Shown in pieces: positions 19,177-30,419 of a DNA stretch of 64,000 bases. Where the stretch lies: NCBI RefSeq assembly GCF_001887355.1, contig NZ_MPIN01000002.1, positions 1-64,000 of the forward strand. The letters are read 5' to 3'. The notes beneath the pieces were generated by a model that saw only the letters and a list, made by a program, of their open reading frames with translations, was not told where the DNA came from and made no database searches. The translations under genes were made by a program, and so were the position numbers. How positions within the stretch are numbered: position 1 is the stretch's first letter; every line of letters begins with the position of its first letter. Source of the DNA: Cystobacter ferrugineus. Its GTDB lineage: Bacteria > Myxococcota > Myxococcia > Myxococcales > Myxococcaceae.

Positions 19177-20487
19177 ATGGACACCATCCACTACCTCTCG
19201 GGCTTCGGGAACGAGCATGCATCGGAGGCCATCCCCGGTGCGCTTCCAGTCGGCCAGAACACGCCGCAGCGCGTCGCGTTCGGCCTCTACGCCGAGCAGA
19301 TTTCGGGCACGGCCTTCACCGCGCCACGAGGTGAGAACCGGCGGACGTGGTTCTACCGGCTGAGGCCGAGCGCGACCCACCCGCCGTACCGGCGGACGGA
19401 AGCACGCCACCTGCGCAGCGGTCCGTTCGACGAGGTTCCGCCGACGCCCAACCGGCTGCGCTGGAATCCACATCCGCTGCCCACGGAGCCGACGACGTTC
19501 ATCGAGGGGCTGTTCACCATGGGCGGCAACGGTTCGCCCGCCATCGGCGCGGGCGCGGCGGTGCACGTCTACGCCGCGAACACGTCGATGGTCGACACCG
19601 CGTTCTTCAACGCCGACGGCGAGTTGCTCATCGTGCCGCAATCCGGGACGCTCCGGATCGTGACCGAGATGGGTGTGCTACGGGTTCCTCCCGGGCACGT
19701 GGCGCTCATCCCACGCGGGGTGCGCATGCGCGTGGAGCTGCCGGACGGACCGGTGCGCGGCTACATCTGCGAGAACTACGGCGCGTCGTTCCGGCTCCCC
19801 GAGCTGGGCCCCATCGGCGCCAATGGCCTCGCCAATCCGCGGGACTTCCTGGCCCCCACGGCGAGCTACGAGGACGTCGAGCGGCCGACGCGCCTCGTGC
19901 AGAAATTCCAGGGCCACCTCTGGGAGACGACCCTCGATCACTCGCCCTTCGATGTCGTCGCGTGGCATGGCACGCACGTGCCATATGCGTATGACCTCGC
20001 GCGGTTCAACACCATCAACACGGTGAGCTTCGATCACCCGGATCCGTCGATCTTCACGGTGCTCACGTCGCCAAGCGAGACGCCGGGGACGGCGAACTGC
20101 GACTTCGTGATCTTCCCACCCCGGTGGATGGTCGCCGAGCACACGTTCCGGCCGCCGTGGTTCCATCGCAACGTGATGAGCGAGATGATGGGGCTGGTCC
20201 ACGGTGTCTACGACGCCAAGGCGGACCAGTTCGTGCCGGGCGGGGTGTCGCTCCACAACTGCATGAGCGCCCACGGACCCGACCGGAAGACCTACGAGAC
20301 GGCGGTGGCCGCGGACCTCGCGCCACGGAAGATCGACAACACGCTCGCCTTCATGTTCGAGACGCGCTGGGTCATCGCACCGACGAGCGCGGCGATGGAG
20401 AGCGCGACGCTGCAGTCGGATTACGACGCCTGCTGGGGTGAGCTCCGCAAGGCCCAGGTACCCACGAAGGAAGGCTCCACGCCATGA
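19177..20487 (+). CDS. hmgA: Homogentisate 1,2-dioxygenase
   Basis: A 436-residue enzyme that opens the ring of homogentisate to maleylacetoacetate in tyrosine/phenylalanine breakdown. The start [18 protein letters not shown] and the block [16 protein letters not shown] are diagnostic. The iron ligands are present: H330 and E336 in [14 protein letters not shown] and H366 in [10 protein letters not shown], with the same spacing as in the human enzyme. The cytoplasmic non-haem Fe(II) protein is full length. Its stop overlaps the start of the fumarylacetoacetate hydrolase gene by four bases (ATGA), so the two steps are translationally coupled. No maleylacetoacetate isomerase gene is seen in the window. 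Confidence 0.97.
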
Positions 20488-21485
20488 AGCTCGCATCCCT
20501 GAACGAAGGGCGGGATGGCCGCCTCGTCGTCGTGTCGAGAGATCTCTCGCGACAGGCGGACGCGTCGTCCGCCGCCCCGACCCTCCAGGCCGCGCTCGAC
20601 GATTGGGAGCGCCGTGCGCCACTGCTGCGCTCGATCGCGGAGCGACTGGAGAGTGGAGCACTCACGGGCGAGCCCTTCGACCCCGAGCGGTGCGCGGCGC
20701 CGCTGCCTCGCGCCTATCAGTGGGCGGACGGCTCGGCGTACGTGAATCACGTCGAGCTGGTGCGCAAGGCACGCAAGGCGGAGATGCCGGAGTCGTTCTG
20801 GACCGACCCGCTGATGTACCAGGGCGGCTCCGATGGCTTCCTCGGCCCACGCCAGCCCATCCCTCTCGCCGATGAGTCGTGGGGCTGCGACATGGAGGGC
20901 GAGGTCGTGGTGGTGACGCGCGACGTGCCCCTCGGGGCCACGCGCGAGCAGGCGCTCGGGGCAATCGTGCTGGTGGGGCTCGTCAACGACGTGTCGCTGC
21001 GCAACCTGATTCCGGGCGAGCTGGCCAAGGGCTTCGGGTTCTTCCAGTCCAAGCCCGCGTCGGCGTTCTCGCCGGTGTTCGTCACGCCCGACGAGCTGGG
21101 CAGCGCGTGGCGTGATGGCAAGCTGCACCGCCGCCTCGAGGTCTTCCTCGACGGCCAGCCGTTCGGGCGCGCGGACGCCGGTGTCGACATGACGTTCGAC
21201 TTCGGAACGCTCATTGCCCACGCGGCCAGGACACGCTCGCTGTGCGCGGGGACGATCATCGGCTCGGGCACGGTGTCCAACCGTGGACCCGACGGCGGGC
21301 CTGGAACGACCGTGGCCGAAGGCGGCGCGGGCTACTCGTGCATCGCGGAGCTGCGCACGGTCGAGACCCTCCGGAGCGGCGCTCCCAAGACACCGTTCCT
21401 CAAGCGTGGCAACCGGGTGCGTATCGACATGCGGGATGAGGCCGGCACGATCTTCGGCGCCATCGATCAGGTGGTCGGGAACTGA
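20484..21485 (+). CDS. Fumarylacetoacetate hydrolase family protein
   Basis: A 333-residue FAH-fold enzyme. Metal-binding and active-site elements are visible: [12 protein letters not shown] (Glu ligands), [12 protein letters not shown] (Asp ligand), [15 protein letters not shown] and [17 protein letters not shown]. In this operon the expected reaction is cleavage of fumarylacetoacetate to fumarate and acetoacetate, the last step of tyrosine breakdown. It is shorter than the animal enzyme (about 420) but typical of the short prokaryotic FAH type. It overlaps hmgA by four bases and is followed by a strong hairpin. Confidence 0.92.
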
Positions 21486-24452: not shown

Positions 24453-24581
24453 ATGAGCCAGAACATCTACGACGCTCCGGTCTTCTTCGCGGGGTACAGC
24501 CAGCTCACACGCTCCTTGAAGGGCCTCGCTGGCGCCCCGGAGTGGCCGTCGCTGCGTGCGCTCCTCCCCGACGTCGAAGGT
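24453..24581 (+). pseudogene. Stub of a SAM-dependent methyltransferase gene
   Basis: The frame from ATG 24453 reads MSQNIYDAPVFFAGYSQLTR and continues to GAPEWPSLRALLPDVEG. This is the typical N-terminus of class I methyltransferases that begin with a YDxPxFFxGYSxL...GLxGAPEWPxLRxLLPD block just before the SAM-binding glycine loop. The similarity stops near 24581 and the DLGCG loop is missing. What follows (LFASEGMKTQ) is unrelated. I read it as a 43-codon remnant left by a deletion or insertion next to the Ebony-like gene. Confidence 0.6.
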
Positions 24582-24621
24582 CTGTTTGCTTCTGAAGGGA
24601 TGAAGACACAAGCTGGGTGTC

Positions 24622-27090
24622 ATGTGGAGTGTGCTTCATGGCCCCCCTCATCCCCTCTCGGTGAACTGGACCCTGGAGGACACCCTCACACGGATGCTGA
24701 CGGCCGACCCGGCGCGCCGCGAGAAACCGGCGCTCCTCACGGATGAGGGCACCATCAGCTTCCAGGAGTTGGACACGCGGACCCGCCAACTCGCACGAGG
24801 GGTGCGGGCGCGATTGCGCGCGGCGTCCTTGTCCGCGCCTCGGGCAACGCCGCTCGTGGGCGTGTGCATGGCACGAGGGCCGGCCATGGTCGAGTTCCTG
24901 TTCGCCGTGCTGCGAGCGGGCGGCGCCTATCTGCCCCTTGATCCGACCTATCCCCCCGCGCGGCTGGCCCACATCCTCGCCGAAGCCGCCCCCTCACTCA
25001 TCGTGGCCGGACCCGAGCACGAATCGCTCGTGCGGCACCTCGCCCCCAGAGGTCCGTGTTGGGTGTTCGATCCGCGTGCGCCGCTCGACCTGGAGGGCGA
25101 AGACCCCGAGCGGCCCGAGTCCTCATCCCCACCAGCGGGCGAGCGGCCCTTCGCGGTGCTCTACACCTCGGGCAGCACCGGACAGCCCCGCGGCGTATGG
25201 CTGCCGCACCGGGCGGCGCAGAACCGGTTTCAATGGATGTGGCGGGCATTCCCCTTCGCCGAGGGCGAGGTGTGCTGCTTCAAGACCCCCCTCGGCTTCG
25301 TCGACTCCATCTGGGAGCTGTTCGGCGCGCTCCTGCGGGGAGTCCCCGTGGCCATCGCACCCGATGGCCTCGAGAAGCAGCCCGAGCGCCTGCTCGCCTT
25401 CGCCGCACGCCACGGCGTGAGCCGGTTGATCGTCGTCCCCTCGCTGCTGAGACTCCTGCTGCCGCAGCTGTCGCCCCCACCCGGGGATTCAGGTGTGCCC
25501 GTGCCAAAGCTGCGCATGTGGACCTGCAGCGGAGAGGCCCTACCCTCCTCGCTCGCCGAAGCGTTCCTCGCGCGGCGGCCGGGCGACGTGCTGCTCAACC
25601 TCTATGGCAGCACCGAGATCATGGGCGACGTCACGGCGCATGTGTGTCGCGCGGGAGAGGACCCCGTCCCCATCGGACGGCCCATCGACAACACCACCCT
25701 CGAGTTGCTCGATGAAACGGGGGCGCCCGTGAAGGTCGGCGAGCGGGGCATCCTCCATGTACGGGGTGCGAACCTCTCGCTCGGCCATCTCGGCTCCGGC
25801 GGGTCCTCCGCATGGGCGGAGGAGGGACAGCGCTACGACACGGGAGACCTCGGCCGGATGGTCCGCGACCCCATCGATGGAGGCTGGATGCTGCTCCACG
25901 AGGGCCGCCGGGACCGGCAGGTCAAGCTGCTGGGCAACCGCTTCGAGCTCGCCGAGCTCGAGCGCGTGCTCCTGCGATGCGAGGGAGTCCTGGCCGCCGT
26001 GGCACTGGTGCGGGAAGACGCGGAGGGACCCTCGCTGCTCGGCTTCGTCCAGCCGCGCGAACCGGGAGCGGTGACCCTGGAGGCCTTGCGCGCGGCGTGC
26101 GAGGCGGAACTGCCGCCCCATGCGCGGCCTGTCCTCGCCCTCATCGAGCACTTGCCGCTGCTGCCCAATGGAAAGCTCGATCGCCAACGGCTGCTCGCGC
26201 TTGGGGCAACGGCCGCGGCACCCGGAGAGGATCCATTCCTGGCCGCATGGCGTGCGGTGCTACCTCGGGCGCCCCTCGAAGAGGACACCGACTTCTTCCA
26301 GGCGGGAGGAACCTCGCTGCTCGCGGTGGACCTGGTGCGCAGGCTGCGCGAGGCTGGCAAGCCGGTGTCCCTCGAACAATTCTACGCGGCGCCATCGCTC
26401 GCCGCGCTGCGGCGGGGCTCCAGCAGACAGGCCCCACCCGGTGCACTCACGGTACGCCCCTTGGAGGCGGCGCGTGACGCGCTCGGCACGGCGGCGGTGG
26501 ACCTGCTCGCGGACCGCTTCGACGAGATCGATCCGCTCAAACAGGCGCTCGGAGCGACACGGGCCGAACTGCATGCGCTGTTCGCCAGCTACCTGGAGTC
26601 CTGCGTGAAGGAAGGCCTGTCCTTCGTGGCCATCGATGGACGCGGGGAGCTGGTGGGATGCGTGGTGGCCGCCGATCTGTCCCGGGTGCATACCCATGCA
26701 CGGGAGGGCCGCTTCGTGGTCGCTCCGCGACTGGAGCCGTTGGACGCCGTCTTGAGCGCGATCACGGACCCCTGGTGTCACCAGCCGTCCGAACCGGGGC
26801 CGGGCGAATGGGTCTACGTGCTGCTGCTGGCGGCCACGGGGCAGCGCGAGGTGGCTCGGGTCGCGCGCGAACTCGAGAGCACGGTGATGGGAGCGGCCCG
26901 CGCACGAGGCTATCGGGGCGTCGTCACGGTCAACACGCATGCCCTGACGCAACAGCTATGCGAGGAGCTGGGCTACCGCACCGAGGCGAGCCTGGACGTG
27001 CGCGAGTTCGTCCACGCGGGCGCACGCCCTTTCGCCCAGGTGCCCGAGGACGGCGCGGAGCTGCGACTGCACGTGCTGCGCTGTCAGTGA
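24622..27090 (+). CDS. Ebony-like A-T-GNAT synthetase, predicted to activate beta-alanine
   Basis: An 822-residue enzyme with three parts. Adenylation domain, about 15-530: A3 LYTSGSTGQPRG, A7 YDTGDLGRM, A10 NGKLDR with K518. Carrier domain, about 535-600: DFFQAGGTSLLAVDL, with S565 as the phosphopantetheine site. C-terminal domain, about 608-822, resembles GNAT-fold arylalkylamine acyltransferases. No condensation or thioesterase domain is present. The order and length match insect Ebony (beta-alanyl-amine synthetase). Aligning A4/A5 by hand gives the ten specificity residues V227 D228 W231 V271 T301 S303 L327 G335 D336 K518, close to the VDxVISxGDK code I recall for beta-alanine. The predicted reaction is ATP-driven transfer of beta-alanine to a free amine. 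The amine is unknown. A truncated phnW follows 31 bases later. Confidence 0.8.
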   Translation: MWSVLHGPPHPLSVNWTLEDTLTRMLTADPARREKPALLTDEGTISFQELDTRTRQLARGVRARLRAASLSAPRATPLVGVCMARGPAMVEFLFAVLRAGGAYLPLDPTYPPARLAHILAEAAPSLIVAGPEHESLVRHLAPRGPCWVFDPRAPLDLEGEDPERPESSSPPAGERPFAVLYTSGSTGQPRGVWLPHRAAQNRFQWMWRAFPFAEGEVCCFKTPLGFVDSIWELFGALLRGVPVAIAPDGLEKQPERLLAFAARHGVSRLIVVPSLLRLLLPQLSPPPGDSGVPVPKLRMWTCSGEALPSSLAEAFLARRPGDVLLNLYGSTEIMGDVTAHVCRAGEDPVPIGRPIDNTTLELLDETGAPVKVGERGILHVRGANLSLGHLGSGGSSAWAEEGQRYDTGDLGRMVRDPIDGGWMLLHEGRRDRQVKLLGNRFELAELERVLLRCEGVLAAVALVREDAEGPSLLGFVQPREPGAVTLEALRAACEAELPPHARPVLALIEHLPLLPNGKLDRQRLLALGATAAAPGEDPFLAAWRAVLPRAPLEEDTDFFQAGGTSLLAVDLVRRLREAGKPVSLEQFYAAPSLAALRRGSSRQAPPGALTVRPLEAARDALGTAAVDLLADRFDEIDPLKQALGATRAELHALFASYLESCVKEGLSFVAIDGRGELVGCVVAADLSRVHTHAREGRFVVAPRLEPLDAVLSAITDPWCHQPSEPGPGEWVYVLLLAATGQREVARVARELESTVMGAARARGYRGVVTVNTHALTQQLCEELGYRTEASLDVREFVHAGARPFAQVPEDGAELRLHVLRCQ

Positions 27091-27121: not shown

Positions 27122-27559
27122 ATGCTCCTGCTCATTCCTGGCCCCGTTCAAACCGATCCACGCGTGCGCGCCGCGATGGCCGCGGACATCGCCCCCTGGG
27201 ACACGGATTTCCGTACCGAATACGCCGCCATCCGCGCCAAGGTGCTCGAGCTCGCGGGCGGCCTCCCGGGCGAGCACGCCACCCTGCCGCTCCAGGGCTC
27301 GGGTCATTTCATCGTGGAAGCAGCGATCCGCACCTTCATCCCCGCGGGCGGGCGATTCCTGCTGCCCAGGAACGGGACCTACGCCGAGCGCATCCACCGC
27401 CTCGCCAGCGAGGCCGGGCGCGTGCCCGTGACAATCGACCTGCCGGATACCCGCCCCGTCACCGCGGCCGAGCTGGACGCCGCCTTCGCCGCGCATCCCG
27501 AGGTGACGCACCTGTGCGCCGTGGTCAGCGAGACCGGCAGCGGCATCATCAAGGTATGA
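27122..27559 (+). pseudogene. phnW: 2-aminoethylphosphonate-pyruvate transaminase, 5' part only
   Basis: The frame starts MLLLIPGPVQTDPRVRAAM and runs through QGSGHFIVEAAI, LPRNGTYAERI and LCAVVSETGSGII, all recognisable PhnW (class V PLP aminotransferase) elements. It then stops after 145 residues. Intact PhnW proteins are about 360 residues; the PLP lysine and whole C-terminal half are missing. The next sequence is the middle of an arginine kinase, so a deletion has joined the two genes near 27553. A functional transaminase is not expected. Confidence 0.8.
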
Positions 27560-28379
27560 TCTGAGTGGGCACAAGAGCGACTTCTCCCTGGAGGGGCTGC
27601 CCTCGGAGAACCTGGATCCCGAGGGGAGGTTCGTCATCTCGACCCGGATCCGTGTCGCACGAAACCTCGCGACTCATGCGTTTCCGCCGGCGATCAGCGC
27701 GGAAGACAGAGCAAGACTGGAGGCCAGGGTCATCGACGTGCTTTCGGGGCTCACCGGCCCATTGAAAGGCAAATACCACCCGCTCCGAAGAATGACCGCG
27801 GAGGCCTGCCAGCAACTGGTGGATGACCACTGCTTGTTCAAACAGGGAGACCGTTTCCTGGAGAGCGCGGGCGCGAACAGGGACTGGCCAGAGAACCGTG
27901 GGATATACCATTCGCCCGACAAGGAATTCATGGTCTGGGTTGGTGAGGAGGACGCCTTGAGGGTGATCAGCATGCAGCGAGGCGCCGATATCAACCAGGC
28001 ATTCACACGATTGAAAGCCGCGCTCGATCAGCTCGGCCATGAACTCGAGTTCGCCTTTGACTGGCGCCTGGGTTTCCTCACGACATGCCCCACGAATCTC
28101 GGCACGGCGATGCGAGCCTCGGTCCACATCAAAATCCCCCTGCTCTCCCAATACGCCGGATTCGAACGTCTATGCGACGACCTGGGATTGTCGATTCGAG
28201 GAACCCACGGCGAGCACTCCGAGCCCATCGACGGCATTCACGATATCTCGAACAAGCATCGGCTTGGAGTCACGGAGCGTGACATCTATCGGAAGCTCCA
28301 TGATGGGGTGAAGCGGCTGATCGAGCTGGAGTCCCAACTCATGGAGAACCCCGGGTTGCGTCTGGGGGATATCCTGTAG
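27556..28379 (+). pseudogene. Phosphagen (arginine) kinase lacking its N-terminal domain
   Basis: From about 27556 the frame reads YDLSGHKSDFSLEGLPSENL, then RFVISTRIRVARNL, and continues to 28379: the C-terminal catalytic domain of ATP:guanidino phosphotransferases. Visible elements are STRIRVARN (ATP phosphate contacts), DHCLFKQGDRFL, MVWVGEEDALRVISMQRG, the reactive cysteine in TCPTNLGTAMRASVHIK, and DISNKHRLG. About 270 codons remain; the family is 345-380 residues. The N-terminal helical domain that shapes the guanidine-substrate pocket is missing, and no start codon exists in this frame before GTG 27738. It should be non-functional unless translated from the internal GTG, which would remove more of the active site. 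Confidence 0.82.
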
Positions 28380-28397: not shown

Positions 28398-29309
28398 TCA
28401 GACCGACGAGGTGGCCGCGCGAACGAAGCGCTCCCTCAGCCACTGATGCGCGGGATCATGCTGTGCACGGACATGCCAACCCATCACGAGGTCGAATGGC
28501 CGCATGGAGAAGGGCAATGGCAGGAGGTCGAGGCCCGACGCGTAGCGGTGGAGAAGCCTGCTGGGGAGTGTGGCGACACAATCCGTGTCGGCGAGGACGA
28601 GGGCGACTTGGTTGTAGTTCGGAACGGTCACGGTGACACGGCGCTTCTTGCCATGCCGGGCGAGGACGTCGTCAACCTCGCTATGAACGCTCCCCCCCTG
28701 GGAAACCATGACATGACTGAGCTGGCAGTAGTCCTCGAGCGTGGGAGCCCCCTGGCCTCTGGGATGCTCCTTGCGCTGAGCGAAGCAGAATTCGTCGGTG
28801 AGCAGGCGGCGGCTCTTGAGCGCTTCGGGAATCCTGGCAGAAATCCCGACGTAGAGGTCGATCTCTCCACGTTCCATCCGGTAGGTCAGATTCTCCTCGG
28901 CCGGTGCGACGAAGCTGAGGCGGATGCCAGGTCCGCCAAGAGCAAGGACATCCTGGGCCACGGAGAGACCGATGATCGTGAAGATGTTGTCGTTGAGCGC
29001 GATCGTGAAATGGCGCTGCGCCTCCTGGGGGTTGAATTCAACCCGGCTCACGACGGCGCTTTGCAGATCGAGCAGCGCCTGGTGCAAGGCCGGCTGCAGC
29101 TCGAGCGCCCGCGGCGTGGGGGTCATTCCACGACCCGCCTCGGACGGAACGAGCAGGGGGTCCTTGAACAGCTCACGCAAGCGGCCAAGCTGGGCGGAGA
29201 GCGCCGGCTGGCTCAGTTTCAAACGGCGGGCCGCACGTGTCACATTCAGCTCCTCGAGCAACACGTCCAGGGAAATGAGCAAGGGCAGGTCGGCCCGCCG
29301 GATATCCAT
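28398..29309 (-). CDS. LysR-type transcriptional regulator
   Basis: A 303-residue LTTR. The winged HTH is at about 10-65 (DVLLEELNVTRAARRLKLSQ, PALSAQLGRLRELFKDPLLV). The substrate-binding domain is at about 95-295. Subgroup features (MDIRRADLPLLISLDVLLEE and DPLLVPSEAGRGMTPT) match NodD/TrpI-like or NahR-like aromatic regulators. It is transcribed divergently from the secreted metallo-beta-lactamase-fold gene, with 111 bases between starts and a clean interrupted palindrome in the gap, so it most likely controls that gene. The inducer is unknown. Confidence 0.9.
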   Translation of the reverse strand: MDIRRADLPLLISLDVLLEELNVTRAARRLKLSQPALSAQLGRLRELFKDPLLVPSEAGRGMTPTPRALELQPALHQALLDLQSAVVSRVEFNPQEAQRHFTIALNDNIFTIIGLSVAQDVLALGGPGIRLSFVAPAEENLTYRMERGEIDLYVGISARIPEALKSRRLLTDEFCFAQRKEHPRGQGAPTLEDYCQLSHVMVSQGGSVHSEVDDVLARHGKKRRVTVTVPNYNQVALVLADTDCVATLPSRLLHRYASGLDLLPLPFSMRPFDLVMGWHVRAQHDPAHQWLRERFVRAATSSV

Positions 29310-29380
29310 CCCGTCTATACCTCCTATAACCGCACTCAACTCACGATGGGCGCTGGGCAACCGTATGTATCCACCACCGC

Positions 29381-29395
29381 GGTTCGTACCGAACC
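29381..29395. promoter_or_regulatory. Interrupted palindrome, candidate LysR operator
   Basis: GGTTCG-TAC-CGAACC is a perfect 6-bp inverted repeat with a 3-base centre, in the gap between the LysR gene and the metallo-beta-lactamase-fold gene. It is 25 bases before the latter's ATG. Size and placement fit an LTTR binding site or a repressor site near the promoter. Confidence 0.45.
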
Positions 29396-29420
29396 CGACG
29401 GCATCCATAGGGGAGAAAAC

Positions 29421-30419
29421 ATGCGTTTCCATCGACTCTTTCTCGACAGCGTGGTCGCGGCAGCGGCCCTGTGCTCCAGCGCCTTGCCGCTCACCACCGT
29501 GGCGGCGCCGTCGGCAGCCGGAACCAACGTGGCCCAAGCACGAGCGCAGATCCCGGGAGTCCACCGCTACCGTGTCGGTGACTTCCAGGTGACCGCGCTG
29601 TCCGACGGCACCGTGCCTCAGGATCTGCATGAACTCCTCAGGGGAACATCTCCAGCGGAGGTCGACAAGATGCTCCACCATGCCTTCCTGAGCAATCCTG
29701 TCGAGGCGTCCATCACGGCCTTCCTGATCGATACGGGGAGCCGGCTGATCCTGGTCGACACCGGAGCCGGCGGCTTGTTCGGGCCGGGCCATGGCGGCAA
29801 GCTCCTCGGCAGCCTCAAGGTGGCGGGATACGAGCCAGAGCAGATCGACGACATCCTGCTGACGCACATCCACACGGATCACAGCGGCGGCCTCGTCAGC
29901 GAAGGCAACCGGGTGTTCCCCAATGCCACGGTGCACGTCGGCAAGCCGGACCTGGACTTCTTCCTCAATCCCGCGAACCAGGGCGGCGTCAATGGCTATG
30001 ACAAGAAGTACTTCGAGCAAGCAGTCAAGACGGTCGGGCCGTACATGAAGGCCGGGAAGGTTCAGGCGTTCACCCGAGAAACCCAGCTCTTCCCTGGCAT
30101 CAAGGCCATCCCGACGCCCGGCCACACCCCCGGGCATGCCTTCTATCGAGTGGAGAGCAGGGGCAACTCAATCACGTTCATTGGCGACATCGTCCACGTG
30201 GCCTCCGTGCAGTTCCCGAAGACGGCGATCACGATTGTCTACGACGTCAGCCCCAAGGATGCCGCGGCTCAGCGCGAGGCGCAGTTCGCCGCGGCGGCGA
30301 GCAATCGCGCCCTGGTCGCGGCGCCACATCTGCCCTACCCGGGGATTGGCCACATCCGCGCGGAGGAGCGTGGCTACACGTTCGTGCCGGTGGACTATCG
30401 CGACCGCCATGAACCCTGA
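29421..30419 (+). CDS. Exported metallo-beta-lactamase-fold hydrolase
   Basis: A 332-residue protein. The first 30 residues (MRFHRLFLDSVVAAAALCSS ending near VAA) form a signal peptide. The dinuclear metal site is present: THIHTDHSGG (HxHxDH), PTPGHTPGH and FIGDIVHV (bridging Asp), with a late histidine in AAPHLPYPGIGH. The block SDGTVPQDL and the overall length resemble quorum-quenching lactonase/AttM-like or methyl-parathion-hydrolase-like branches of the family. GGGGAG lies 6 bases before ATG 29421. It is divergent from a LysR gene that probably regulates it. The substrate is unproven. Confidence 0.9.
   Translation: MRFHRLFLDSVVAAAALCSSALPLTTVAAPSAAGTNVAQARAQIPGVHRYRVGDFQVTALSDGTVPQDLHELLRGTSPAEVDKMLHHAFLSNPVEASITAFLIDTGSRLILVDTGAGGLFGPGHGGKLLGSLKVAGYEPEQIDDILLTHIHTDHSGGLVSEGNRVFPNATVHVGKPDLDFFLNPANQGGVNGYDKKYFEQAVKTVGPYMKAGKVQAFTRETQLFPGIKAIPTPGHTPGHAFYRVESRGNSITFIGDIVHVASVQFPKTAITIVYDVSPKDAAAQREAQFAAAASNRALVAAPHLPYPGIGHIRAEERGYTFVPVDYRDRHEP

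Follow-up and report, generated by a model that had tools for sequence, protein, structure and literature searches.

The gene and its surroundings

In the window (the whole stretch of 64,000 nucleotides of Cystobacter ferrugineus DNA that was analysed), positions 24622-27090 of the plus strand form an 822-codon open frame for an 822-residue protein that, on the basis of its translation, Pfam matches, and an orthologue alignment, we refer to as a bacterial Ebony-like protein of the layout A-T-AANAT. It consists of an adenylation (A) domain at residues ~32-520 (24715..26181, +; PF00501 219 bits, PF13193 26.5 bits), a carrier (T, or PCP) domain at residues 540-596 (26239..26409, +; PF00550 43.4 bits), and a C-terminal AANAT-type GNAT domain (26434..27087, +), which was placed by a PDB sequence match and by its predicted fold as the likely counterpart of Ebony's condensing domain. 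Ser565, in a GGTS motif of the carrier domain (26314..26316, +), is the predicted phosphopantetheine attachment site and is kept in 4/4 orthologues. AMP-binding (32-388), AMP-binding_C (445-518), and PP-binding (540-596) are all above the Pfam cut-offs, whereas from about residue 605 onward there is no Pfam match above cut-off (Acetyltransf_1 appears at E 0.1) and no NCBIfam match at 0.01. The order A, carrier, C-terminal domain is present in the three of the four family members that were scanned with Pfam, and none of these three has a match to the Condensation domain (PF00668) that a canonical NRPS module would carry. The first-pass annotation had described a protein with just these three domains, in the layout and length of insect Ebony, and this description stands: the A and carrier domains are confirmed by Pfam and the C-terminal one by sequence and fold, the order, the carrier Ser, and the AANAT-type C-terminal domain are common to both proteins, and 822 residues compare with 879 in Drosophila Ebony.

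Among 195 genomes of the host phylum, four (C. ferrugineus included), distributed over three genera, carry the gene or an orthologue of it. All four proteins share the start MWS; the closest to the C. ferrugineus protein, in genome G003 (90% identical), has a possible alternative start 17 codons earlier. The Ebony-like open frame is most likely a working gene, because GC3 is 0.82-0.84 across the four orthologous genes and dN/dS is 0.17-0.38 in all three domains (A, T, and C-terminal domains taken separately, in each of four orthologue pairs).

In G003, the gene comes after the same histidine kinase gene as in C. ferrugineus, and the same LysR and lactonase genes adjoin it; among the four orthologue loci, these two are the only ones with a histidine kinase and a LysR gene jointly beside the gene. 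In the window, the LysR regulator and the AidB-like lactonase are encoded divergently at 28398-30419, the lactonase having a metallo-beta-lactamase fold and a score below the AidB cut-off. A short open stretch (24453-24608; MSQNIYDAPVFFAGYSQL...) lies in the gap that separates the Ebony-like gene from the histidine kinase gene, and we take it to resemble the N-terminus of a SAM methyltransferase; it has no NCBIfam match and falls within ~200 bp that have no DNA match in G003. At 19177-21485 lie a homogentisate dioxygenase gene and an adjoining gene taken for fumarylacetoacetase-like (from a weak match to a related hydrolase only), and the corresponding place in G003 is too small to hold this second gene. 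At the orthologous locus in G105, the Ebony-like gene is preceded, at a distance of 51 bp, by the end of a Bcr/CflA exporter gene.

Adenylation domain and specificity code

Comparisons with full-length Drosophila Ebony used a partly verified working sequence: it has 879 residues (a length that is itself assumed) and Ser at 611 as published, it agrees in 61/61 letters with an independent stretch of 6DYM, and its A-domain letters are provisional. The Ebony-like protein aligns with this working sequence collinearly from end to end, through the A, T, and C-terminal domains, at an identity of 31% (827 columns, E 6e-97). When the A-T part of the working sequence was searched against the 195 genomes, with six candidates scored and one locus taken in each, the best eight matches were the four family members mixed with four NRPS modules. 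Sixteen non-family loci were returned, again one per genome, nine with the code VDWV[VTM]SLADK and seven with DVWH[VI]SLVDK. The former (L066-L069, L074-L077, and L080), from nine related genomes, are A domains inside NRPS frames 3,500-6,600 aa long and are probable beta-alanine modules. Besides Ebony, they are the closest A domains in these searches to that of the Ebony-like protein (39-42% identity in the three compared, for example L066 in G117), although the latter is a single A-T-GNAT protein rather than part of such a frame.

An A-domain tree of 47 rows (unrooted, with ultrafast bootstrap/SH-aLRT values, and with Drosophila, its Ebony letters provisional, as the only animal) places Ebony and the family in one group with support of 100/99, and of 99 in another tree run. 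A larger group of Ebony, the family, and the nine VDWV[VTM]SLADK A domains has 96/93. The tree, like the code counts below, leaves out L004, a badly aligned fragment, while L002 was added later. By plain identity, the A domain stands at 41.6% to a VDWV module vs. 37.1% to Ebony, and an AU test against an arrangement that holds the family with the nine VDWV modules gave only p 0.041, for a group that was named after the tree had been seen. The A domain groups with the A domain of Ebony, with these values as cautions and with the further caution that branches are long and the composition of Ebony is unusual.

The specificity code of the A domain is VDWITSLGDK, read from V227, D228, W231, I270, T301, S303, L327, G335, D336, and K518, and is the same in the four orthologues; its first nine residues, identified by their code columns, are encoded at 25300..25629 (+). 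The mapping relies on PheA position numbers and code meanings that we take to be the standard ones, and the same columns yield familiar-looking codes, such as DILQLGLIWK, in other A domains. As a yardstick for beta-alanine we assumed VDWVISLADK; six code strings of this type, looked for in the open-licence PMC literature, were not found. The first-pass annotation had read V,D,W,V,T,S,L,G,D,K, of which nine residues are correct and the fourth is I270 instead of V. Its description of a near-perfect beta-alanine code, differing only at the fifth residue, was too strong, as the match to the assumed yardstick is 7/10 with three differences (I, T, and G).

The other A domains of the C. ferrugineus genome score far lower on the same scale: of 41 other matches, 27 A domains were taken for codes, and the 26 that were scored (L004 being dropped) reach 0-3/10. 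The code score is nevertheless a weak measure, because the seven serine-type DVWH[VI]SLVDK domains of related genomes reach 5-6/10 against the same yardstick and the code of the Ebony working sequence, VDAVVSFGDK, reaches only 6/10. The latter shares with VDWITSLGDK the V-D of the first two positions and the later S, G-D, and K. In beta-alanine-type codes, the Asp is moved from position 235 to position 236, and the leading V-D is, on the sequence evidence, the telling part of the code, which sets it apart from the serine-type codes.

Taken with the tree, the code makes beta-alanine the likely substrate of the A domain. The most serious competitor is that the domain takes an alpha-amino acid, or a beta-amino acid other than beta-alanine (such as 3-aminoisobutyrate or 3-aminobutyrate), so that the protein would make a different amide. 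Three pocket positions do depart from the assumed beta-alanine code, the serine-type codes score nearly as high, and the 236-Asp arrangement also occurs in A domains for other beta-amino acids. However, the A domain groups with Ebony and the VDWV[VTM]SLADK modules and not with the serine-type ones, and its code is unlike the 26 other codes examined from the same genome. We therefore regard a different amino acid as unlikely, at about the level of an outside chance, and retain beta-alanine as the likely substrate in what follows.

C-terminal domain and probable acceptor amine

In a phmmer search of the C-terminal domain against 177,635 distinct PDB sequences, with matches listed to E 10, the best match is the C-terminal domain of Ebony (6DYM, 2.6e-8), and only two further ones appear, mosquito AANAT2 (0.013) and the chlorella-virus polyamine acetyltransferase A654L (0.13). 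Conversely, a 71-residue piece of Ebony, its letters taken from the PDB match, was searched against the 195 whole genomes of the host phylum and gave significant matches, at 2.9e-9 to 2.5e-6, to the four family members and to nothing else, the runner-up being at 0.11. The match between the two domains is thus a two-way one within the phylum.

A fold model of the C-terminal domain built from the four sequences has a mediocre mean pLDDT of 59, and falls below 50 in the last 55 residues, so part of the case for the fold comes from sequence; an AlphaFold model of the full-length protein (pLDDT 34.7) was set aside. Foldseek matched the C-terminal model to 3qb8 at 4.4e-8 and to Ebony (6dym) at 6.0e-8, with TM ~0.6, and in VIA-align the two are tied (Z 14.7 for 3qb8 vs. 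Z 14.5 for Ebony, with 177 residues aligned to Ebony at 3.3 A). Insect dopamine acetyltransferases come next by fold (Z ~12), and an agmatine acetyltransferase also ranks high. An AANAT-type GNAT fold is accordingly what is predicted for the C-terminal domain, in line with the structural comparison to Ebony that the first-pass annotation had proposed.

The insect AANATs and polyamine acetyltransferases (3TE4, 5K9N, 3QB8), although similar in fold, take acyl-CoA, whereas the donor of the Ebony-like protein would be carrier-bound. The motif that we assume to mark the usual acyl-CoA loop of GNATs, [QR]xxGx[GA], is missing from the C-terminal domains of all four orthologues; in Ebony (working sequence), the pattern occurs twice, outside the loop as aligned. 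The general base of insect AANAT is the Glu of a DEPLN motif (PMC6070697). At this place the Ebony-like protein has I-D-P-L-K, with Asp637 at the catalytic Glu and D-P-L invariant in 4/4 orthologues, a departure from the motif of the acyl-CoA-dependent insect AANATs. The aligned Ebony (working sequence) is likewise without Glu at this position.

An arylalkylamine is the most likely acceptor. Polyamines are the chief alternative, given that the fold match to 3qb8 ties with that to Ebony. With a polyamine or agmatine as acceptor, the protein would be a beta-alanyl-polyamine synthase, the same machine in other respects, and this possibility overlaps partly with the reading that the family makes N-beta-alanyl amines. 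It is suggested by the best fold match, which is the PBCV-1 polyamine acetyltransferase A654L, and by the high rank of agmatine acetyltransferase. By sequence, however, Ebony is far ahead (2.6e-8 vs. 0.13 for A654L), and the only informative neighbour of the family is an aromatic amino acid decarboxylase (AADC), leaving a polyamine acceptor rather improbable, more so than a different amino acid.

This AADC is encoded by a divergent PLP decarboxylase gene 41 bp from the start of the orthologue in genome G125, and in the PDB it comes closest to tyrosine, DOPA, and tryptophan decarboxylases (2.4e-150 downwards). Of the four loci, one has an AADC gene next to the Ebony-like gene; AADC is present in 6/6 genomes searched, which include all four carriers and two without an Ebony-like gene, and five genomes other than G125 have close copies of its AADC (82-88%). 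The neighbour is a hint of arylalkylamines that was noticed only afterwards, but it is a pointed hint, since planarians require both an AADC and an Ebony-related NRPS for beta-alanyl-tryptamine (PMC11214079). As for the supply of beta-alanine, panD is present in 3/4 carriers; the one in which it was not found is G125, whose locus has the AADC neighbour. The Tan-type hydrolase family (PF03417) is uninformative, as it occurs in 4/6 genomes, carriers and a non-carrier alike.

Two further alternatives carry little weight. The general GNAT/AANAT fold of the C-terminal domain would fit a chance fusion of an A-T didomain with a common acyl-CoA acetyltransferase, but the fusion is kept in 4/4 orthologues of three genera with dN/dS well below 1, the protein matches Ebony collinearly, and the assumed CoA loop motif is missing from all four, which makes a chance fusion very unlikely. 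The other concerns phnW, which the first-pass annotation had placed directly downstream, with the suggestion that the enzyme caps an aminophosphonate. PhnW-like sequence does start 31 bp downstream of the Ebony-like gene, but only as an N-terminal fragment of 145 codons followed by a stop, its match ending at position 141-147 of models 355-369 long. A fragment of a McsB-like protein-arginine kinase (NCBIfam) follows it, and the ~1.3 kb that hold the two pieces (27122-28379) have no DNA match at the same place in G003 and look like the debris of a deletion or insertion. With phnW fragmentary here, and with no PhnW found by tblastn in 20-kb regions round three orthologues, capping of an aminophosphonate together with PhnW can practically be dismissed.

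Proposed reaction and relation to animal Ebony

We conclude, with a probability of roughly 0.68, that the protein is homologous to animal Ebony and serves the bacterium as an N-beta-alanyl-amine synthase. The A domain would adenylate beta-alanine with ATP to beta-alanyl-AMP, a substrate suggested by the code and the tree, and the beta-alanyl group would then be loaded onto the phosphopantetheine arm at Ser565. The AANAT-fold C-terminal domain would take the place of a condensation domain, with the amine attacking the thioester, and an N-beta-alanyl-amine would be released, the acceptor probably being a small arylalkylamine, to which Ebony homology and the one AADC neighbour point. Adenylation, carrier loading, attack by the amine, and release are the steps described for Ebony (PMC6070697).

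Compared with Drosophila Ebony, the C. ferrugineus protein differs in being bacterial and not animal, in its overall sequence, and in the W, I, T, and L of its code where the Ebony working sequence has A, V, V, and F. The comparison with Ebony made in the first-pass annotation is nonetheless borne out, and more strongly than it was put there, by the three shared domains, the two-way C-terminal match, and the A-domain grouping (Ebony letters provisional). A second likeness, drawn from published description, is to the schistosome and planarian NRPS for beta-alanyl-tryptamine, of which the planarian one works with an AADC (PMC11214079), as the G125 orthologue adjoins one.

Relatives of the C-terminal domain were listed in 6/195 genomes, namely the four orthologues and weak matches in G127 (1.6e-8) and G004 (9.9e-4), both of which are lost at E 0.01 with a profile that includes Ebony. 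The G004 match lies opposite a longer gene model. That in G127 is a free-standing 301-aa gene model (L019:9432-10337) that is 27% identical to the C-terminal domain, and a sequence search of the PDB gave no convincing match to its protein (best E 0.81). Scans of contigs with two alignments, each through two short exact peptide patterns, returned no relative, and plasmids contained no C-terminal-domain match at 0.01. Of five full-protein plasmid matches covering at least 80% of the query, the one read, a Thioclava protein, was rejected as a C-A-T-thioesterase. It is possible that relatives, perhaps many, exist in other phyla.

Ebony and its relatives figure as animal enzymes in PMC10531068, and among the matches listed from the open-licence PMC literature, no report of a bacterial Ebony appears in titles or the openings of abstracts. 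A more far-reaching interpretation, which we offer tentatively and would not favour at even odds, is that the family is the sister of animal Ebony, that the A-T-AANAT machine arose in bacteria and passed to early animals, or the reverse, and that a soil bacterium which meets insects and flatworms makes a product of the animal kind, such as beta-alanyl-tryptamine or beta-alanyl-dopamine. A full-length bacterial relative would in any case provide an outgroup for the origin of Ebony, and may express easily in E. coli.

Insect Ebony joins beta-alanine to dopamine or histamine, and amine conjugates of the kind that serve animals in pigmentation and signalling may also be made in bacteria. The bacterial Ebony-like protein predicts that beta-alanyl amines are made by bacteria, and since planarians use one such conjugate as a reproductive signal (PMC11214079), a bacterial source would be a testable ecological link.
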